A stretch of DNA of 64,000 nt, from positions 1-64,000 of IMG/VR virus record IMGVR_UViG_3300032893_000011, one strand, 5' to 3'. The DNA comes from a virus. Position numbers and translations under genes: made by a program. Below the pieces are notes generated by a model. The model was not told the DNA's origin, searched no databases, and worked only from the letters and a program-made list of their open reading frames with translations. This document shows positions 1,350 to 39,962 of this stretch, in pieces. Each line of letters starts with the position of its first letter. Within the stretch, counting starts at the first letter, position 1.

Positions 1350-4124
1350 GTGAACGACGAACGCGCGCGCGTCTACACCGACGTGCGCGACTTCCCCATC
1401 CACGTGTCCTACATGGACGAGCGGACCCGCATCTGGGGCGCCCCCTACCGCATCTGGGACGGCACCGCCGTGATCGTCGGCCTGTCGGCGACCGGGTGGG
1501 CGATGTGGCACTGGCTGGACTCCGGGCACCCCGTCATCATCGGCATCCTCGGCCTGACCCTCACCGCCGCGGCGAGGTGGCTGGCGAAGATGATGCCGAT
1601 CTCACGCCCGAGCCCCGCATGGCGGGCCCGCTGGCTGGCCACCGCCATCACGGCCCGCCCGCGGCGCGCCGACACGGCCGGCGGCGACCCGTGGCTGTCC
1701 CCACCCAAGGCGGTGATCGGCAACCTGGTGTTCACCCACGGCGGGGTGTACGCCGAATACCTTCTGGCCGGGCAGCCCGGCGGGATGATGCCCCACGAGC
1801 AGCGCCGCGCCGTAGCCGCGCGACACCGCCCCCTGGTGCGCCAACTGCCGTCCGGGTTCGTTCTGTGGGGGGTGTGCGCCCCGGTCGGGCGCCGCGAGCT
1901 GATCAACCGGATGCTGCGCGGCCACACCGACCAGCCGCGCTGGGTGTCGGAAGTCCGTGCATGGGAACCGGCCTTCGACCGTAAACAGTTCTGGGAGCCG
2001 GTGTTCGGTTTGCGGGTGCCCGTCGACGCCGGACAGGCCGGGCGCTCCAGCGTCGGCGGGCTGGCGAAGACGTGGAAAACCATCGTAGGGGCCGAGCCCG
2101 ACAACGCCGGAACCCTCGACGGGTACCGCCGCTTCGCCGACGAAATCCTCGCCAAGATCCCCGCCGAGTTCAACCCCGTCCCGGCCACGCCCCGCCAGAT
2201 CCGCTGGTGCTACCACCGCCACTGGACACGCGGCACCGACACCGAGCCGTTCCCGCACGGGCCCGGCGGCCCCGAGCGGTTCGACCCCGCCCACTTCCTC
2301 GACATGCCAGCCGTCTTCGACGAGGGCGACCAGGCCGGTCGCACCGGCCCGTGGTGGCGCCGGTGGCTGCCGTCGCTGGCGCCGGTGCTGCGCATCGACA
2401 CGGCGGGCGGTAATTCGTATCAGGCGCTGCTGGCGGTCGACCAGCTGCCCCGCCAGGGCCTCGCGCATCCCGGCGCCGAATACCTCATGTCCGTCTACGA
2501 CGTGCCGACCGACGCGCAGGTCGACTGGTACGCCCACGTCGACACCCGCTCGCGGGAGCGCGCCCTGGTCGGGGTGGACCGGGCGCAACGCAACCTCGAC
2601 GACCAGGCGTGGCAGACCAGCGGCCGCGGCGATTTGGCGCGCCGCTACGACTCGTCGGTCGACTACCGCCAAGCCCTGGAGGCCAGCAAGCTCGAACGCG
2701 AAACACAAACCACCACCGTCGTGGCGGTCGGCGCCTCCTCCCGCGCCTGGGTGCTGCGCGCGGCCGCCGCGCTGCGCACCCACATGGCCGAGGACATGGA
2801 GATCGTGCTGAGCGGACCGGCCGGCGCGCAGCGGGCCCTGTGGTGCCTGGGGGCCACAGGCGCCGCCGACCAGTCACCGCGCTCACAGTTCCGCCATCCC
2901 ACCACCACCACCGAATGGGCGCGGTTCGCGCCGCTCGCATCGGCCGAACTGGGCAACGACACCGGCATCCTGCTGGCCGCGAACCTGTCCACGGCCCGTC
3001 CTGGCCCGGTGTACGTCGACCTGGAGGGCTCCGCGGCGCGGCGCGACGCCCCCGGCATGCTGTGGTTCGGCCCGCCCGGCGGCGGCAAGTCGCAGGGCTG
3101 CAAACGCGTCGCCGACGCCCTGATCAAACGCGGCTCCCAGGTCACCGTCATCGACCCCGGCTCGAAACGCGAATGGGAGCACGCCCTGGCGCACCACGGC
3201 GACGCGGTGGCGGTGATCGACCCCACGGCGGGCCGCTGGTCGATCGACCCGCTGCGCCTGTTCCCGCGGGCGGTGGCGGTCGAACACACCCTCGACCACC
3301 TTTTGCCGCTGCTGGGCGTCGAACCCGACTCCGCAGCCGCCGGGCAGCTGAACCTGGCGCTGCGCGACGAATCCATACCGAGCCTCGCCGCGCTCACCAG
3401 AACGTTGCGCCCCGACGGCGAGCACCCCGAGCTGGCCGCCAAGCTGCGATCCTGGGCCGGCGTGGACTACCTGCGCGGCCTGTTCGACGACACCCTGCCC
3501 GTCCCGCCCATCGCGCAGCACGACGCCGTCATCTGGCTCACCCACTCCCTCGAACTGCCCACCATGAGCAACACCGACAACCTGCACCTGTACGGCCGCC
3601 AGTCCCGGCGGGCCCGCGCGGGTCTGGCCGTCTACGGCCTCATCGCGGCCCTGACCCGGCTCACCTACACCAGTGCGGGCCGCGACCGCTGGGGGTGGCT
3701 GATCTGCGAGGAGGCCCGCACCTACCTGGCGTCCCCGGCCGGGCGGGAGGAGGCCACCCGCACAATCACCCAGGGCCGCAAGGAGCACTACGGCCTGATC
3801 GTCATCTCCCAGCACATCGAGGACTTCGACGGCATCCCCACCCAGGACCTGCCGATGCGGATAATCACGCCGTTCAAACCCGCCGAGCGCGACTACGCCC
3901 GCGCGGTGTTCAAGCGGATGGGCATCGACCCCGACCAGTACCCCCAGGTCCTCGACACCCGCACCGCGGAGGGCCACGGCTACGCCTACTTCATCGACCA
4001 CCTGGGCCGCGCCGGGCTGGTGGACCTGCTGGCCCCGGTGCAACCCGAACTGGTCGGCGCGTTCGACACCCGCAACCTCGACCAAACAGTACAATGCCTA
4101 CATGATGGATCCGGAAGACGCTGA
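1350..4124 (+). CDS. VirB4-family conjugation ATPase
   Basis: The 924-residue protein begins at GTG 1350. Its first 110 residues carry two membrane segments (PrgI-like in position), followed by a long domain that would contact the channel and a C-terminal RecA-like ATPase. Walker A is GPPGGGKS at residues 574-581 and Walker B is WGWLICEEAR at about 781-790. A downstream QGRKEHYGLIVISQH segment matches the VirB4/TraC pattern. Known role of the family: cytoplasmic ATPase that powers type IV secretion assembly and DNA or protein transfer. It sits in one operon with the VirB8-like and VirB6-like genes. No relaxase or VirD4 coupling protein is seen in the window, so either the module continues to the left or it is incomplete. 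Confidence 0.9.
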   Translation: MNDERARVYTDVRDFPIHVSYMDERTRIWGAPYRIWDGTAVIVGLSATGWAMWHWLDSGHPVIIGILGLTLTAAARWLAKMMPISRPSPAWRARWLATAITARPRRADTAGGDPWLSPPKAVIGNLVFTHGGVYAEYLLAGQPGGMMPHEQRRAVAARHRPLVRQLPSGFVLWGVCAPVGRRELINRMLRGHTDQPRWVSEVRAWEPAFDRKQFWEPVFGLRVPVDAGQAGRSSVGGLAKTWKTIVGAEPDNAGTLDGYRRFADEILAKIPAEFNPVPATPRQIRWCYHRHWTRGTDTEPFPHGPGGPERFDPAHFLDMPAVFDEGDQAGRTGPWWRRWLPSLAPVLRIDTAGGNSYQALLAVDQLPRQGLAHPGAEYLMSVYDVPTDAQVDWYAHVDTRSRERALVGVDRAQRNLDDQAWQTSGRGDLARRYDSSVDYRQALEASKLERETQTTTVVAVGASSRAWVLRAAAALRTHMAEDMEIVLSGPAGAQRALWCLGATGAADQSPRSQFRHPTTTTEWARFAPLASAELGNDTGILLAANLSTARPGPVYVDLEGSAARRDAPGMLWFGPPGGGKSQGCKRVADALIKRGSQVTVIDPGSKREWEHALAHHGDAVAVIDPTAGRWSIDPLRLFPRAVAVEHTLDHLLPLLGVEPDSAAAGQLNLALRDESIPSLAALTRTLRPDGEHPELAAKLRSWAGVDYLRGLFDDTLPVPPIAQHDAVIWLTHSLELPTMSNTDNLHLYGRQSRRARAGLAVYGLIAALTRLTYTSAGRDRWGWLICEEARTYLASPAGREEATRTITQGRKEHYGLIVISQHIEDFDGIPTQDLPMRIITPFKPAERDYARAVFKRMGIDPDQYPQVLDTRTAEGHGYAYFIDHLGRAGLVDLLAPVQPELVGAFDTRNLDQTVQCLHDGSGRR

Positions 4125-33056: not shown

Positions 33057-35807
33057 GTGACGGTCCCCGCCCTGCGTGTCGTGCGCCGTCCCAAACGCGC
33101 CCACCGCCACCTGTCCCTGGTGGCCGCCAGCCAACCCATCGAAACCCCGCAACGCATATTCAGGACCACCGTCTCCGGGGTCGTCGCCGACGACGACTGG
33201 CAAACCGAGGCCTGGGACATGTACGACGCCGTCGGCGAGCTCCGCTACTACGTCGGCTGGCGCTCCTCATCGTGCTCACGGGTGCGCCTCATCGCCTCCG
33301 AGATCGACCCCGACACCGGCCGCCCCACCGGCACCTGCGACAACCTCGCCGCCGCCCAAGTCGTCAACGGCATCGCCGGTGGGCACCTCGGCCAAACCCA
33401 GCTCATCAAACGCGTCGTCGAATGCCTCACCGTGCCCGGAGAAGTGTGGGTGGGCATCATCCAACCCGGCGACGAGCCCGCGCAACGCTGGCTCGCCCTG
33501 TCGAAGGACGAGATCTTCAGAAACGGCGCCGGGGCGGAGATCGAGCTGCCCGACGGGTCGCGCCACACCCTGTCCATGCCCCGCGACTCGCTGATCCGCG
33601 TCTGGATCCCCCGAGCCCGGCGGGCGTCGCAGCCCGACTCGCCGGTCCGGGCCTGCCTCGGGTCGCTGCACGAGATACACCGCACCACGAAAACCATAGC
33701 CAACGCCTCCAAGTCCCGCCTCATCGGCAACGGCATCGTGTTCGTGCCGCAGGAGATGTCCCTGCCGCCGATGAACACCCCCCTGGCCGCCAACCAGCTC
33801 GGGCCGCCCACCCCGACGATGGACGGCACGTCGGCGGTGCAGCAGCTGCAGGAGCTGCTGTGGCAGGTGGCGCAGACGGCCTACGACGACGAAGACTCGA
33901 TGGCTGCCCTGATACCGATGTTCGCCACCGTGCCCGGCGACCAGATCAAAAACGTGCAGCACCTGCAGTTCGAGAACAACATCACCGACGTCGCGATCAA
34001 GACCCGCAACGACGCAATCGCCAGGCTCGCGATGGGATTGGACGTGAGCCCAGAAAGGCTCCTCGGTTTGGGGCGAAGCTCAAACCATTGGTGCAAAGAC
34101 GACCAGACTGAAATTCTGACACAACGCGGCTGGTTACGGCAGGATCAGCTGCGAATCGGCGACATGGCGCTGACGCTACAGCAAAGCGGGTTGAGCGAGT
34201 GGCAGCCAGTGCTGGACATCTACCGTGCTGACGTGATTGATGAGCCGATGCTGTCAATGGAGGCGGCGTCTCATTCATCGTTGTCCACGGCAGGGCATCG
34301 CTGGCTGGTGACTCACGTTAGCAACGGGAAATGGCGATGGACGACCAGCGGTCAGGGTTTCGCCAAGGCGGACCGCATACCCGCCGCTGCAAGATGTGTG
34401 TCGTTACCTTCTGGGCCGAAGTACTCGGATAGTTTCGTTCGGCTCGCAGCTGCTTACATGTCGGACGGCTCGCGGTTGCGCTATGAGTCTGGAACAGAAT
34501 TCGTTCGTATCGTCAAGTTCGATGCCGATGAAATCATTGCTTTGCGAGCGGTGTGCCGTGAAGTGTTCGGGCGTGACGTCTCAGAGCGCCATCACCCGAC
34601 CAGAACACGCGCCGGGCTGGCTTTCGTGCTGCACGCCGATGAGTCACAAGCGCTGTTTGACATCACCAGCGAGCATAAGGCGCTCAAACCCGAGTTCATT
34701 CTCACGTTAACGGAAGCGCAGCTGCACCTGTTCCTTGATGCGTTGATTGAGCTTGGCGACGGTGTCGCTTTATCGCATGGTGCTCGGACCTTCTTCCAGG
34801 TGGAGCCGTCACGACTGGACGCCATCGAGATGGCAGCGATCCTCGCTGGCTATCGCTGCACCCGCGGGCAACGTAATCAGCAGACCGGTTTCGGCACGAC
34901 TCCGCTCCACTGGCTACGAGCTGGAACGGCTCGTAAATGGTTTGCTCCCTATGTGGCCGAAAAGTCCTGGCAACGTTACTCCGGGGTCGTCTGGTGTCCA
35001 ACCACCGAGAACGGGACGTGGTTCGCGCGGCGAGATGGAAAGGTCTGCGTCAGCGGAAATTCGGCCTGGCAGTTAGCTGACGAGGACGTGCAGCTGCACA
35101 TTTGCCCCGTGATGGAGTTGCTGTGCGCGGCGTTCAACGAGCGCATCGTCGGCCCTGTGTTTCAGAGGATGGGCATCGACCCCACCCGCTACATGCTGTG
35201 GTACGACGCCACCGGGCTGACCGCAGACCCCGACAAAACCAACAACGCCACAGCGGCGTTCGACCGGGGGGCGATCACCGCCGACGCGTTGCGCTCCTAC
35301 CTGCAGCTCGGCGACGACACCGGCTACGACCTGTCCACCCTCGAAGGGTGGAAGGTGTGGGCGCGCGACCACGTCAGCAAGGACCCCACCCTGCTGTCGG
35401 TCCCGCAGCTCGTCGCGCTGCTGGGCCCCGACGTGGTGAAGGTGACCACACCGCCCGCCCCGCCACCCGAGCAGCCCGCAGTGCCCGCCGGGCAGCGCCC
35501 GCCCGCGCTGCCGTCCGCGAAACCCAAACCCGCAGCCCCCGCGCAGCAGGAGCCGCAAACCGAGGAGGAGGAGGCGGCCCCGGCCGCACAGGTCCGCGAC
35601 GACGTGCACATGGGCATCGTGGACCTGATGGTGTCACGGGCACTCGGCCTCGCGTCGCGGCGGCGTCGCGGCACCGGCGACCGGTGGGACGAAGCCCTCG
35701 AAGACGAAGTGCTGGGTCTGCTGAACATCGACGGCGAGGACGTGCGCGCGGCGGTTCGCCGCAGCGTGCGCCACAAACTCGCCGCGCGCAACGGGGAAGG
35801 AAGCTGA
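33057..35807 (+). CDS. Portal protein interrupted by an intein
   Basis: The 916-residue precursor contains a 323-residue intein at 346-668; the spliced portal would be 593 residues. The exteins read RLLGLGRSSNHW then SAWQLADEDVQLH, which rejoin to NHWSAWQ, a conserved portal sequence of actinophages. The N-terminal part has the EVWVGI and DGTSAVQQLQELLWQVA segments of the portal stem and wing. The C-terminal 120 residues are Pro/Ala/Glu-rich, then helical. The portal forms the ring through which DNA is packaged by the terminase. Confidence 0.92.
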   Translation: MTVPALRVVRRPKRAHRHLSLVAASQPIETPQRIFRTTVSGVVADDDWQTEAWDMYDAVGELRYYVGWRSSSCSRVRLIASEIDPDTGRPTGTCDNLAAAQVVNGIAGGHLGQTQLIKRVVECLTVPGEVWVGIIQPGDEPAQRWLALSKDEIFRNGAGAEIELPDGSRHTLSMPRDSLIRVWIPRARRASQPDSPVRACLGSLHEIHRTTKTIANASKSRLIGNGIVFVPQEMSLPPMNTPLAANQLGPPTPTMDGTSAVQQLQELLWQVAQTAYDDEDSMAALIPMFATVPGDQIKNVQHLQFENNITDVAIKTRNDAIARLAMGLDVSPERLLGLGRSSNHWCKDDQTEILTQRGWLRQDQLRIGDMALTLQQSGLSEWQPVLDIYRADVIDEPMLSMEAASHSSLSTAGHRWLVTHVSNGKWRWTTSGQGFAKADRIPAAARCVSLPSGPKYSDSFVRLAAAYMSDGSRLRYESGTEFVRIVKFDADEIIALRAVCREVFGRDVSERHHPTRTRAGLAFVLHADESQALFDITSEHKALKPEFILTLTEAQLHLFLDALIELGDGVALSHGARTFFQVEPSRLDAIEMAAILAGYRCTRGQRNQQTGFGTTPLHWLRAGTARKWFAPYVAEKSWQRYSGVVWCPTTENGTWFARRDGKVCVSGNSAWQLADEDVQLHICPVMELLCAAFNERIVGPVFQRMGIDPTRYMLWYDATGLTADPDKTNNATAAFDRGAITADALRSYLQLGDDTGYDLSTLEGWKVWARDHVSKDPTLLSVPQLVALLGPDVVKVTTPPAPPPEQPAVPAGQRPPALPSAKPKPAAPAQQEPQTEEEEAAPAAQVRDDVHMGIVDLMVSRALGLASRRRRGTGDRWDEALEDEVLGLLNIDGEDVRAAVRRSVRHKLAARNGEGS
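34092..35060 (+). other. Intein in the portal protein, with sense LAGLIDADG-like domain
   Basis: It starts at C346 (CKDDQTEILTQRGW, block A) and has a block-B-like AASHSSLSTAGHRWLVTH. The end is WFARRDGKVCVSGN before S669. The penultimate residue is Gly rather than the usual His. The middle holds FVRLAAAYMSDGS and LFLDALIELGDGV, two LAGLIDADG-like helices, so this intein encodes its endonuclease in frame. The site is the conserved NHW/SAWQ portal motif, a typical choice for an intein. Confidence 0.9.
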
Positions 35808-35810
35808 ACC

Positions 35811-38800
35811 ATGTGGCCCGACCACGCCGAGGCGATCGAGGAGACCGTTAACGCCGAGGAGGCGCTGGAGGACGCCTACACACAGGCCCTGCACGCATGG
35901 GCGCCCCACGTGCAGGCCGCTGTCCTACCCGAACTGGACGGGCAGATCGTCACCGGCGACGACGACCCGCTGACCGCCGCAGCCACCGAAATCCCGCCCA
36001 ACCCCGACGCTGTCGGCTCCACCCAAAACCAGTGGGACGCCAGCGCGGCCGAGCACGTGCTGCCGGTGGTGGAGAAACTATGGGACGACGCCGCACTGGC
36101 CGCCGGGATCGGAACCGGGACACTCACCGCCGCCCTAAGCGCAGCCGACCTGCTGGCCGCAGCGAAATCGGCGCGCGACGACTTCACAAGCCGCTACAGG
36201 GACACCGCAGCGCAAGTGCCCGCCGCGGTGCGAGCCGAACTGCAGGCCATCATCAAACGCGCGCCCATAGGCACCACCACCTCGGCGCTGCGCTCGACCA
36301 TCCGCAAAGCCATCACACCCGGATCAGCGCTGCTGCGCGACCTGTCGCGACGCGCGAGCTACCACGCCGCCGGGATCCTCAACCACGCCCTCACGGCCGT
36401 CGCCAAACACACCGCAGGCGCCGACCGGCTCGAATGGCTGTGTGTGCACCCCGACACGGTCGTGTCGGCTGTCGGCGTCACCCACCTGGCGCGTCGCCGC
36501 TACGAAGGCACCCTTGTATCGATTCGCACAGCTTCGGGGTCGGCCGTGGCCCTCACACCGCAGCACCGTGTACTGACCGGCCGCGGGTGGGTGGCCGCCC
36601 AGCTCCTTCACGAGGGTGACGAGCTGTTCAAGGTCGGGGCCGTTAACGCCCCGGTCGCACCACACGTACAGGACGGGATAACCGTTATCGGTGATGTGGT
36701 CGACGCGGCGATGGACGGTCGCCCGCCCCAGGTGCGGTCCGTGGCGCGAGGTGTGGATTTCGACGGCCACACCGCTGGCGAGTATGTCGACGTTGTAGCG
36801 GCCGACCGCGACCTGCCGATCAACATCGAACCCGCTGGCGGCGAGATGCTCGGCGACCTGCTGCTCGCTGACGCCGACAGTCTGGCTCATGCGGCGATGC
36901 TTGGTGCGCGCCATCGCAACCACACCCTCGGCCGGTTTGGCGCGGCCCCGGTTCTTGTCGGCAACCATGCCGTAGAAGGCGGCCTTGACATCGGCGGGAA
37001 TCTTCGACACCCGGACCTTGCCAGCGGCGGACTTATCCCGCAACTCGACACCGGCCGCCGCGACAACGGCGGCGATCAACTGACCGGAACAACCGTATCG
37101 CTGGCCGAGCGCGAGCCGGGATCCCCCGGCGAGATACGCGGCGACGATCTCGTCAGCGTTGGCGCGGATGTCGCCGCGCCGCCGGGCCTCGACACCGAGT
37201 TTCTGCGCGGCCCGCGCCTGCGCAACGGCCTCGGGTCGGGTGAAACGCATCCGGGTGCCCTCGGCGCGGGTCCTCAAAACTCCCGCGTCGCGCAGCCTGC
37301 GGCGAACCGTCCCGGGGCTGCCGCCCAGGTCCACGGAGATTTCGACGGGACTCCATCCGGCGGTATACCTGGCGACGACCTCATCGACGTCGAGCCGGAC
37401 CCGCTTGGTGCGTGTGTTCGCGACCGGGTGGTCAGAGTGGGGCGAATTTTCCATAGCGGGTACGTGTACGACCTTTCGACGCGTGGCCATTGGTACACGG
37501 CGAATGGACTTATTGCACATAATTCTATACTCGACGAACGCACCCGCGACACCCATTGGGAGGCAGACGGGCAGGTCACATCGATCGGCGGGATGTTCGT
37601 CGTCGGCGGCTCTGAAATGGAATTTCCAGGGGACCATAGGGCCCCAATACGCGAATGGATCAACTGCGTGACCGGCGAGGCGCTAGTCTCCTGGCCTGGG
37701 CAGCAGGTATCTCACGCTACGAAGCGGCGCCACCGCGGCGCGTTCGTCCATCTGCTCACGGCTGACGGTCACGACCTCACCATCACCGCGAATCATCCCG
37801 TACTGACCGACGCCGGATACGTCACCGCTCACCTGTTGCGCCCAGGCGATCACGTCATCGCATCCGACCCCCTCAATGCCCCACAGGTAGATCACATGCC
37901 AGCCCGTGCTGATGAGGTCTATCGTGCGTTTCGCGATGCGGGGGTAGAGCAGCGGGTTGTAGCGAGCGGCGTGGACTTCCACCACGACGCGCTCGAAGGC
38001 GACGAAGTCAGCGTTGTACGGGCCGATGGTGACTTGTCCGAGGAGTTCAACCCCGGCCTTCTCGGCGGCGGCGACGATGCAGCGCTCGTTGGGCTGGGCA
38101 GCGGAAAGGGTGACGCCGCGCGTGCGGGCTCTGCTGTAAACGGCCGTCTCGACCTGGCCGTAGTAGCCCCTGGACGGCCTGGCGGCCGTCGACCGGCGAG
38201 CCTCGTTGGCGGCCCGGGCGATAGCGCGCCTACCCTCACGGTCGAGTTTGGCGAACCTGATCCGGTTGGCTTCGCTGCCAGAACGCACAGGAAGTCCCTG
38301 GTCGCGCAGGAGACGGACGATGGTGTCTCTGCTTACTCCGATGGTGCGCGCCATCTGCAGCACGCTTATGCCCTCGGCATGAAGCCGAGCAAGCTCACCG
38401 CTGTCGACGTTTACTTTGGCGACCATGATGTCTTCAACTTCTCGACCACCCAACAATTCTACTTCGGCAATGGCATTGCCGTGCACAACTGCCGATGCAG
38501 GCTGATCGCCCTGGGTGCAGGTGAGGAGCCTAAACTGCGGCGCGTGCCCGCCGAGGAGGCGGCCAAACGCGCCAAGCGCGGCGTGGTGCACGCCGAAGCG
38601 GAATCGGTGACCGCAGCGACGGAAGAGGTGGAGCAGATGGGCACCGTCACCCAGATCGATCCCCAGCAGCAGCCCGGCGAGACGTACCGCACGTTCACGG
38701 CGACGACCGCGTTCCTCGGCGTCCCCACCACCGACCGCCGCATGCTGCACAAGAAGATGGACCTGAAGATCCGGGCAGCCCCGCGACCGCTGATGTGGAT

Positions 38801-39962
38801 GTCCAAGACCGGTGATGGCATGGGGGGGCACCAGCACGCGTCCACGGTGGGCGTCATCGAGTCGGAGCAGGTCAAGGGCAACAAGATCGTCGAGTCGGGG
38901 TACCTGCTGAACACCCCGGACGCCGACGAGGCGGCGATGCAGCTCGCGCACAAGGTCACCCGGCCGTCGGTCGATTTGGGCGGCGCGGACTGGCAGATGA
39001 CCGACGAGGACGGCAACAAGATCGGCGAGGAGGAGTGGCGCAACCTGTCGCCGGGCACCAAGACGTACCGCACGTTCACCGCCGGTGAGTTGATGGGCAC
39101 AACCTTGGTGTCCACGCCCGCGTTCGGGGCGACGTCGCTGACGCTGCACCCGGAGCGCGAGACGCGGGACGTGGCGCTGGTCGCGGCGGCGGTGCAAAGC
39201 GCCCTGTTCTACGAGCCCCGCATATACCCGGCGTCGCACTTCTCCGACCCGCAGCTGCCCGGGCCGGCCCAACCGACGATGCTCGACGACGGCCGCATAG
39301 TGGGGCACATCGCCTGCTGGGGGGCGTGCCACCGCAGCGTGCAGAAACTCTGCCAGGAGGCGCCCCGATCCCCGTCCAATTACAGCCACTTCCACACCTC
39401 CCCGGCGGTGCGCCTCGACGACGGCACCCGGCTGCCGGTGGGACGGTTGACGATCGCCACCGGCCACGCCGACGGCCGCCTGAGCGGTGTGCCCGCGCAG
39501 GCCCACTACGACAACACCGGCTCCTGCTGGGCGCTGGTGCGGGCCGGGGAGGACGAGCACGGCATCTGGGTGTCCGGCATCGCCGCCCCGTGGGCCGACG
39601 CGGACCTGGTGGAGCAGGGCCTGTCCGCGCCGCTGTCGGGCGACTGGCGCGACTTCGGCGCCGGCCTGGACCTGATCGCCGCCCTGTCCGTGAACACCCC
39701 CGGGTTCGTCGCGGCCTCCGGGTTCGAGGACGAGTGGGGCCAGCAGCTGACCCTGGTGGCGTCCCTCGGACCGGACCCGACAGGGTCCCGCGGCCCGGCC
39801 GCGCTGACCCGCGACGACATCAAACGCGCGTTCGCCGAGGTCCTGTTCGAGGAGAATGCGCGAATCGAGCGGGAGTCGGCCCTGACGCGGGCCGCAGCGT
39901 TCACCCACCCGCCCACCCACAACGAGCGGGTCCGCGACATGCTGACCAGGGCCGGGTTCTAG
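35811..39962 (+). CDS. MuF-like head protein fused to a prohead protease, with two inteins
   Basis: The 1383-residue precursor would leave 747 residues after removal of inteins at 211-571 and 619-893. Extein 1 plus the short extein 2 (SILDERTRDTHWEADGQ) and NCRCRLIALG after intein 2 rebuild the MuF/gp7-type core of minor head proteins. The remaining C-terminal part has MDLKIRAA...WMSKTGDGMGG, a TTLVSTPAFGATSL segment, and then IVGHIACWGACH, SHFHTSP and RLTIATGHADG, the His and Ser positions of actinophage capsid-maturation proteases. Both strands are open across each intein. Confidence 0.9.
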   Translation: MWPDHAEAIEETVNAEEALEDAYTQALHAWAPHVQAAVLPELDGQIVTGDDDPLTAAATEIPPNPDAVGSTQNQWDASAAEHVLPVVEKLWDDAALAAGIGTGTLTAALSAADLLAAAKSARDDFTSRYRDTAAQVPAAVRAELQAIIKRAPIGTTTSALRSTIRKAITPGSALLRDLSRRASYHAAGILNHALTAVAKHTAGADRLEWLCVHPDTVVSAVGVTHLARRRYEGTLVSIRTASGSAVALTPQHRVLTGRGWVAAQLLHEGDELFKVGAVNAPVAPHVQDGITVIGDVVDAAMDGRPPQVRSVARGVDFDGHTAGEYVDVVAADRDLPINIEPAGGEMLGDLLLADADSLAHAAMLGARHRNHTLGRFGAAPVLVGNHAVEGGLDIGGNLRHPDLASGGLIPQLDTGRRDNGGDQLTGTTVSLAEREPGSPGEIRGDDLVSVGADVAAPPGLDTEFLRGPRLRNGLGSGETHPGALGAGPQNSRVAQPAANRPGAAAQVHGDFDGTPSGGIPGDDLIDVEPDPLGACVRDRVVRVGRIFHSGYVYDLSTRGHWYTANGLIAHNSILDERTRDTHWEADGQVTSIGGMFVVGGSEMEFPGDHRAPIREWINCVTGEALVSWPGQQVSHATKRRHRGAFVHLLTADGHDLTITANHPVLTDAGYVTAHLLRPGDHVIASDPLNAPQVDHMPARADEVYRAFRDAGVEQRVVASGVDFHHDALEGDEVSVVRADGDLSEEFNPGLLGGGDDAALVGLGSGKGDAARAGSAVNGRLDLAVVAPGRPGGRRPASLVGGPGDSAPTLTVEFGEPDPVGFAARTHRKSLVAQETDDGVSAYSDGARHLQHAYALGMKPSKLTAVDVYFGDHDVFNFSTTQQFYFGNGIAVHNCRCRLIALGAGEEPKLRRVPAEEAAKRAKRGVVHAEAESVTAATEEVEQMGTVTQIDPQQQPGETYRTFTATTAFLGVPTTDRRMLHKKMDLKIRAAPRPLMWMSKTGDGMGGHQHASTVGVIESEQVKGNKIVESGYLLNTPDADEAAMQLAHKVTRPSVDLGGADWQMTDEDGNKIGEEEWRNLSPGTKTYRTFTAGELMGTTLVSTPAFGATSLTLHPERETRDVALVAAAVQSALFYEPRIYPASHFSDPQLPGPAQPTMLDDGRIVGHIACWGACHRSVQKLCQEAPRSPSNYSHFHTSPAVRLDDGTRLPVGRLTIATGHADGRLSGVPAQAHYDNTGSCWALVRAGEDEHGIWVSGIAAPWADADLVEQGLSAPLSGDWRDFGAGLDLIAALSVNTPGFVAASGFEDEWGQQLTLVASLGPDPTGSRGPAALTRDDIKRAFAEVLFEENARIERESALTRAAAFTHPPTHNERVRDMLTRAGF
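36324..37490 (-). CDS. Antisense HTH plus Vsr-like homing endonuclease inside intein 1
   Basis: On the minus strand a 388-residue frame starts at ATG 37490 (ATG 37454 is an alternative). It has two helix-turn-helix units (EVVARYTAGWSPVEISVDLG, then IVAAYLAGGSRLALGQRYG). The nuclease follows: VSEQQVAEHLAASGF, VGRYNVDILASGVAVEIHTS and RRVDHITDNGYPVLYVW. The E, YNVD and VEIH elements fit the Vsr-like homing endonuclease fold. Similarity to the intein 2 gene continues to GQYTVLRCEG at about 36550, opposite intein block B. The tail beyond that reads across the intein border and is probably meaningless. Confidence 0.76.
   Translation of the reverse strand: MATRRKVVHVPAMENSPHSDHPVANTRTKRVRLDVDEVVARYTAGWSPVEISVDLGGSPGTVRRRLRDAGVLRTRAEGTRMRFTRPEAVAQARAAQKLGVEARRRGDIRANADEIVAAYLAGGSRLALGQRYGCSGQLIAAVVAAAGVELRDKSAAGKVRVSKIPADVKAAFYGMVADKNRGRAKPAEGVVAMARTKHRRMSQTVGVSEQQVAEHLAASGFDVDRQVAVGRYNVDILASGVAVEIHTSRHGPHLGRATVHRRVDHITDNGYPVLYVWCDRGVNGPDLEQLVTLVKELGGHPPAAGQYTVLRCEGHGRPRSCANRYKGAFVAATRQVGDADSRHDRVGVHTQPFEPVGACGVFGDGREGVVEDPGGVVARASRQVAQQR
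36441..37523 (+). other. Intein 1 of the MuF-protease gene (no sense endonuclease)
   Basis: Block A starts at C211 (CVHPDTVVSAVGVTHLARR), block B is ALTPQHRVLTGRGWVAA, block F is GYVYDLSTRGHWYTANGL and block G is IAHN before S572. The 250 residues between blocks B and F are Gly/Asp/Pro-rich and look like no endonuclease; they are the reverse reading of the antisense gene. The host site lies in the MuF core, between EWL and SILDERTRD. Confidence 0.88.
37522..37527 (-). promoter_or_regulatory. Minus-strand TAGAAT hexamer upstream of the intein 1 antisense gene
   Basis: TAGAATT on the minus strand covers the intein 1 splice junction codons (Asn-Ser), about 31 nt before ATG 37490. The intein 2 antisense gene has the same heptamer about 29 nt before its start. 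It fits a mycobacterial -10 element. Confidence 0.35.
37683..38426 (-). CDS. Antisense HTH plus Vsr-like homing endonuclease inside intein 2
   Basis: The whole 247-residue gene, ATG 38426 to TAG 37683, lies inside intein 2 on the opposite strand; the frame is open far upstream, but that part is shadow. A helix-turn-helix (GISVLQMARTIGVSRDTIVR) is followed by NERCIVAAAEKAGVELLGQ, then GPYNADFVAFERVVVEVHAA and KRTIDLISTGWHVIYLWGIEG. The E, YNAD and VEVH elements and the GW(H)V(I)Y(L)W strand match Vsr-like homing endonucleases and the intein 1 antisense protein. The C-terminal GQYGMIRGDG lies opposite intein block B. Confidence 0.82.
   Translation of the reverse strand: MVAKVNVDSGELARLHAEGISVLQMARTIGVSRDTIVRLLRDQGLPVRSGSEANRIRFAKLDREGRRAIARAANEARRSTAARPSRGYYGQVETAVYSRARTRGVTLSAAQPNERCIVAAAEKAGVELLGQVTIGPYNADFVAFERVVVEVHAARYNPLLYPRIAKRTIDLISTGWHVIYLWGIEGVGCDDVIAWAQQVSGDVSGVGQYGMIRGDGEVVTVSREQMDERAAVAPLRSVRYLLPRPGD
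38456..38461 (-). promoter_or_regulatory. Minus-strand TAGAAT hexamer upstream of the intein 2 antisense gene
   Basis: TAGAATT lies on the minus strand within the coding DNA for intein block F, about 29 nt before ATG 38426. A GAGAAG sequence just before the start could serve as a weak ribosome site. Confidence 0.35.

Follow-up and report, generated by a model that had tools for sequence, protein, structure and literature searches.

Our analysis indicates that the two inteins interrupting the MuF gene of this virus are very likely mobile inteins, each paired with a homing endonuclease encoded by a distinct gene on the opposite strand of the same DNA, an explanation in which splicing, expression, cleavage and homing are inferred. 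What could be shown by computation is the anatomy of these elements, the register in which the two strands are read, selection on the antisense protein, avoidance of sense stops, a bias in sequence toward expression signals, the polymorphism between empty and occupied insertion sites, and the use of two unrelated nuclease types. In the mechanism we propose, the sense strand would encode the head-protein precursor, from which a Hint domain (blocks A, B, F and G) would splice itself out, and the sense region facing the nuclease would be an unstructured linker on which the sole demand is the absence of stops. The antisense strand would encode a helix-turn-helix (HTH) and Vsr-like nuclease from its own start, which lies opposite the His codon of block F, with the nuclease's own promoter-like and SD-like signals lying, in many relatives, within the block F/G complement. 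Cleavage of intein-free alleles by such a nuclease would lead to copying of the intein through repair. The window, meaning the whole stretch of 64,000 nucleotides that was analysed, is part of a 113,740-base IMG/VR virus record, and carries the following features, with HEN1 and HEN2 designating the two antisense nucleases:

35811 to 39962, plus strand: MuF minor capsid/maturation protease gene, 1383 aa (PHROG head/portal families and Phage_Mu_F fragments).
36441 to 37523, plus strand: intein 1, 361 aa, C211 to N571 (junctions WL/C...HN/SILDERTRD; site WL/S-ILDERTRD).
37665 to 38489, plus strand: intein 2, 275 aa, C619 to N893 (junctions IN/C...HN/CRC; site IN/CRC).
36552 to 36578, plus strand: block B of intein 1, LTPQHRVLT (its complement is HEN1 GQYTVLRCE).
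37776 to 37808, plus strand: block B of intein 2, LTITANHPVLT (its complement is HEN2 GQYGMIRGDGE).
37455 to 37475, plus strand: block F of intein 1, SGYVYDL (usual start opposite the His position lost, H to Y and ATG to GTA).
38421 to 38441, plus strand: block F of intein 2, DHDVFNF (its complement contains the HEN2 start codon).
About 36324 to 37454, minus strand: HEN1, predicted tandem-HTH and Vsr/DUF559-like nuclease (overlaps intein 1; canonical start and stop lost).
37683 to 38426, minus strand: HEN2, predicted HTH and Vsr-like nuclease, 247 aa (wholly within intein 2; ATG at 38426, stop at 37683).
38301 to 38402, minus strand: HEN2 helix-turn-helix, approximately residues 9 to 42 (Pfam HTH matches; three-helix segment in the AF2 model).
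36753 to 36797, minus strand: putative catalytic core of HEN1, YNVD...VAVEIH (sense reading VDFDGH...VDVV).
37971 to 38018, minus strand: putative catalytic core of HEN2, YNAD...VVVEVH (sense reading VDFHHD...VSVV).

In the case of the sense strand, both inteins lie inside one single MuF ORF of 1383 aa, and both satisfy the criteria for an intein, namely blocks A, B, F and G, a terminal nucleophile and a C-terminal Asn. The sense MuF protein matches Pfam Intein_splicing above the cut-off (E 1.6e-14) as well as NCBIfam intein_Nterm and intein_Cterm, and none of three profile libraries gave a match to a nuclease in the sense reading. These profile searches bear out the original prediction, which had claimed two MuF inteins with good splicing blocks and no sense endonuclease; the in-frame endonuclease domain that is usual for homing-endonuclease inteins is in fact absent, the nuclease being antisense at every locus. 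AF2 models the sense intein as two confident Hint halves with a disordered linker between them at residues ~127–223, and matches of the sense intein profile to the PDB are limited to the intein ends. Intein 1 has a relative at the corresponding site of Mycobacterium phage Sejanus, and the nearest relative of intein 2 is found in Gordonia phage Kewpiedoll. The same arrangement recurs in a second contig, IMG/VR 3300032829_000020, with 3 differences over 6.7 kb, of which the sole one within the inteins is silent in the sense reading and T to A in HEN2. We also observed that the PHROG head-protein family phrog_15127 is matched by MuF residues 575–747; because this match spans the intein 2 splicing region, the family model probably includes intein sequence.

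On the opposite strand, each intein faces a protein with an HTH and nuclease motifs of the YN(V/A)D and VE(I/V)H type, and with a GQY segment opposite block B, all as originally claimed and now confirmed by exact mapping (YNVD at 36786–36797 and VAVEIH at 36753–36770 in HEN1; YNAD at 38007–38018 and VVVEVH at 37971–37988 in HEN2). Judged from its sequence alone, HEN2 appears intact. The description of HEN1 needed two corrections, in that it lacks a canonical start, GTA replacing ATG opposite block F, and in that its frame continues for 39 codons past the intein edge into the N-extein, with its stop in the extein complement. This frame is open from 37637 to 36324, and the most plausible start is the ATG at 37454, which would give 376 aa to the stop and 340 aa to near the intein edge. 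By appearance HEN1 is partly eroded, and it may possibly be decaying. The three antisense registers contain 0, 5 and 11 stops in intein 1 and 1 (HEN2's own stop), 11 and 13 in intein 2, and homologs for the antisense reading exist by both HMM and tblastn searches, which is evidence for more than a chance reverse frame.

The antisense protein is very likely a Vsr-like nuclease, its cleavage activity being inferred. HEN1 and HEN2 give weak Pfam matches to DUF559/MTES_1575 and to HTH families, those to the nuclease families falling below curated cut-offs. The antisense profile matches two PDB nucleases, 3HRL and 3R3P, the latter being the catalytic domain of I-Bth0305I. AF2 predicts a folded antisense protein (pLDDT 78, pTM 0.54), and the top Foldseek match of this model is again 3R3P (prob 1.0, E 2e-3). 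Detectable homology in the catalytic region thus satisfies the criterion for the Vsr/DUF559/MTES_1575-like superfamily, in agreement with the endonuclease type that had been claimed. With regard to the EDxHD signature, E114, D140 and E150 are conserved in alignment A4 and the HD part was not identified. The broad alignments A1 and A2 yielded no searchable pattern.

A referee might object that the genuine domain is the sense linker, of which the antisense ORF would be only a mirror image arising from codon-on-codon overlap. In favor of this view, conservation of one strand is partly reflected on the other in this register, and the sense reading DFHGD...EVEIV shows conservation and, in the model, partial structure. 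Against it, differences between aligned pairs by HEN codon position follow the order 3 > 1 > 2 in every pair, and dN/dS on both strands, a comparison that the original prediction had proposed as a check, is 0.10–0.45 (NG86) for the HEN compared to 0.65–1.38 when those bases are read in the sense frame, again favoring the antisense strand in every pair; nuclease homology, in addition, is exclusive to the antisense reading. The flanking exteins show normal sense-frame constraint. A mirror-image artefact of sense conservation is therefore ruled out by codon-position rates and dN/dS, the rival as a whole is all but excluded, and the protein under selection is the antisense nuclease.

The sense frame is nonetheless strictly kept free of stops. 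Codons that would create a sense stop (TTA, CTA and TCA) were expected 200 times in 69 HENs from local codon usage, and none was observed, which supports the claim that the head protein must remain stop-free. The original inference of a backwards insertion is likewise supported. The codon-on-codon register is workable because sense stops there map to HEN Leu (TTA/CTA) and Ser (TCA) codons, which have synonyms, and we infer that the register is universal because a sense stop in it maps to a single HEN codon for which synonyms exist. The possibility that GC content opens these antisense frames was considered and ruled out by AT-rich relatives and by another intein of the same genome. The AT-rich relatives (GC 0.34) have 0 stops in register versus 31 and 17 in the other two. 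The other intein, the third of this genome, lies in the portal gene (33057–35807, plus strand) at 34092–35060, is 323 aa long (SNHW/CKDDQTE...VCVSGN/S), and has LAGLIDADG-like motifs in the sense frame; since Pfam found no match to it, we regard it as a divergent intein. With 11, 12 and 8 stops, its antisense frames show that such frames are not opened by GC content alone. The claim that the reverse frame is not due to chance was upheld by the homologs, the stop counts per register and this portal intein control.

The arrangement is far wider than the single genome in which it was noticed. In all ~180 distinct loci (16 named phages, 80 viral contigs found with the HEN, 7 bacterial contigs and 80 found with the sense sequence, with 4 repeats), the nuclease is antisense to the intein in register 0, codon on codon, and from this shared design it follows that a mobile intein can take the form of a two-way gene. 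Searches by tblastn with the two antisense proteins returned 110 and 61 phage records. In 16 representatives, covering Gordonia, Mycobacterium, Rhodococcus, Haemophilus/Aggregatibacter, Escherichia, Salmonella, Klebsiella, Cronobacter, Pantoea, Pseudomonas, Vibrio, Idiomarinaceae and a metagenomic virus, the nuclease was always antisense and in the codon-coincident register, and its gene was unannotated in all 16 records. The 80 viral contigs from the nuclease-profile search have 0 sense stops in that register and 2–34 in the others, and the 7 bacterial genome contigs with the same arrangement come from Atlantibacter, Chloroflexi, Planctomycetota, Scytonema, Phaeospirillum and actinobacteria. 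We acknowledge that the first HEN scan relied in part on a peptide complementary to block B, and thus carried a search bias; a nuclease-blind search, with the sense blocks A–B as the only query, is free of this bias, yet it also favors the same intein lineage. That search returned at least 80 loci and at least 560 relatives, and an antisense nuclease was present in 80 of 80 loci. The original prediction would have been refuted by the lack of any nuclease-family match, or by antisense frames broken while the sense linker stayed conserved, and neither was met across the ~180 loci.

It could also be argued that the antisense nucleases are real but are relics, or are becoming so, with their ORFs kept mainly by sense-strand and GC constraint. 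In support, HEN1 has no canonical start or stop, and three relatives with short inteins of 183–191 aa (L135, L149 and L185) have nucleases without the N-terminal HTH part; these three are possibly decay intermediates. Against this, HEN dN/dS is low family-wide, and 74 of 75 complete inteins from the nuclease-blind search pass the length test for an intact, nuclease-bearing antisense frame, one of the three short inteins being the failure. We consider relic status very unlikely for the family; for HEN1 alone it is a serious option, even if we lean slightly against it.

Signals for expression of the nuclease appear to be hidden in blocks F and G. In most relatives the HEN starts at a codon complementary to that for the His of block F (GHVYNLQ), an SD-like GGAGG is the complement of the next NLQ/DLQ residues, and a TATAAT-like box, often TGnTATAAT, is found in the block G complement. 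Compared to synonymous shuffles preserving the sense protein, CAT was present at the start position in 48 of 57 cases (22.6 expected), the −10-like motif was enriched (combined p 6e-25, the loci not being independent), and an SD of 5 or more was found 21 times (8.4 expected); the combined SD p value across all loci was not significant (0.56). Because many loci are related, the combined p values overstate the evidence. The start codon and the −10-like promoter in the block F/G complement are thus shown as a bias in sequence, their use in expression being inferred. The signals in the window are weaker than these: in HEN2 the ATG is kept, the SD is weak, and a clear −10 box is lacking. As these signals lie inside the block F/G complements, the mobile unit can contain the complete expression cassette. 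Another reading of such signals would be that the antisense transcript regulates MuF expression, the protein being secondary, given that any antisense promoter within the gene would yield antisense RNA (an inference, promoter-like sites having been found); protein-level selection and the nuclease motifs speak against this possibility and all but exclude it.

Evidence for mobility of the antisense-nuclease inteins comes from Vividuovirus, a genus of Gordonia phages, where the MuF IN/CRC site is either empty or occupied by one of three different inteins: the Vivi2 type, the Kewpiedoll type, which is the nearest to intein 2 of the window, and the type of Lennon, Thing3, Nordenberg and Barsten. 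A comparison of phages with and without the intein, also proposed originally, identified an empty allele in Shivanishola that is exactly 948 nt shorter than Vivi2, and near the site the Vividuovirus MuF exteins compared share about 85–100% identity with the empty allele, so that patchy site-specific insertion with precise empty alleles is satisfied in this group. In the Lennon type the antisense nuclease occupies the same register but is an unrelated, LAGLIDADG-like protein with a AAYVAAFIDGEGTV motif and a weak match to I-MsoI (E 0.0013); Pfam found no LAGLIDADG match in this antisense protein. Its homologs in Cyanophage PP and CcrRogue bear the annotation of free-standing homing endonucleases, and dN/dS is 0.11 in the antisense versus about 1.2 in the sense reading. 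The arrangement therefore arose at least two times. With regard to the window, the HEN tree groups HEN1 with Sejanus (100/98) and HEN2 with Kewpiedoll (100/99), each from the corresponding site of another phage, which indicates that the two inteins were acquired separately; local duplication of one intein within MuF is ruled out by the same tree. One could propose that the nuclease is expressed mainly to damage rival intein-free phage genomes (exclusion) and not for self-copying, since cutting intein-free alleles would serve both ends and the targeted head genes are essential and conserved. Inteins, however, have been swapped between diverged hosts (extein dS 1.41 versus HEN dS 0.34 in the pair L017/L020) and alternate with an empty site, which indicates copying, and exclusion is very unlikely as the main function.

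In spite of their commonalities with known systems, antisense-nuclease inteins show clear differences from each. Canonical full-length inteins with an in-frame LAGLIDADG or HNH domain share the Hint blocks A, B, F and G, a nuclease between B and F, and patchy sites with empty alleles; here, however, the nuclease is encoded by a gene of its own, antisense to the splicing blocks and overlapping them, and the sense linker is without a domain. The I-Bth0305I/EDxHD (Vsr-like) endonucleases and the "fractured genes" also tie a Vsr-like fold to introns and inteins, with 3R3P as our best fold match; Dassa 2009 and Taylor 2011 reportedly place the nuclease within an intron or, as a free gene, between the halves of a split intein, whereas in our case a single polypeptide forms the intein and the nuclease is antisense. 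Nuclear rDNA group I introns include an antisense homing endonuclease gene, I-DsqI, shown to be active (PMC9548176), and likewise opposite to the host-gene strand; that system involves an RNA intron, eukaryotic rDNA and a His-Cys nuclease, with no second protein through the same bases. The ShiLan insertion, with an out-of-frame HNH (PMC11855218), resembles ours in hiding an endonuclease in another frame, in leaving the host frame open and in being patchy in actinophages, but it is on the same strand, of HNH type, and no splicing domain was detected. The claim that no such intein family has been described stands only as far as the literature accessible to us goes, and a preprint by Gosselin, Arsenault and Gogarten (2025, 10.1101/2025.01.02.630785), whose title and citing text (PMC11855218) suggest unusual actinophage inteins with overlapping frames, may possibly anticipate part of it.

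Our results show that a homing gene can run in reverse across a protein-splicing element, with almost all of the intein coding on both strands, and they provide a naturally occurring, replicated example of extended antisense gene overlap in which register, stop avoidance and regulatory signals hidden in motifs are measurable. Gordonia phages with and without the intein exist, which permits a direct homing test. A bolder reading, which in our judgment could as easily fail as hold, is that these inteins are a large undescribed class of two-way genes, in which blocks F and G double as start codon, ribosome site and promoter, block B as the C-terminal part of the nuclease, with at least two origins from unrelated nucleases, fixed in the sole register where stops can be avoided synonymously.

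Among the genes interrupted by these inteins are those for MuF (PF04233), a dCMP deaminase (PF00383) and a phage metallopeptidase (PF18894). The last, a third host-gene type, is putative and carries its antisense-nuclease intein at 2204–3628 of an Actinobacteria isolate 28 contig (L110). The dCMP deaminase interrupted by an intein at 616–1968 of Virus Rctr197k (KX853510.1, L015) is annotated as "putative head morphogenesis protein", a name that likely stems from the intein. A Scytonema sp. contig (L111, 1606–4395) has a MuF gene with a nuclease-free mini-intein and a second intein with an antisense nuclease, and locus L083 is another MuF carrying two antisense-HEN inteins. In the close Kagunavirus MuF genes of Snoke (L008) and fEg-Eco06 (L013), the inteins lie at two different sites, and neither phage shares that of the other.
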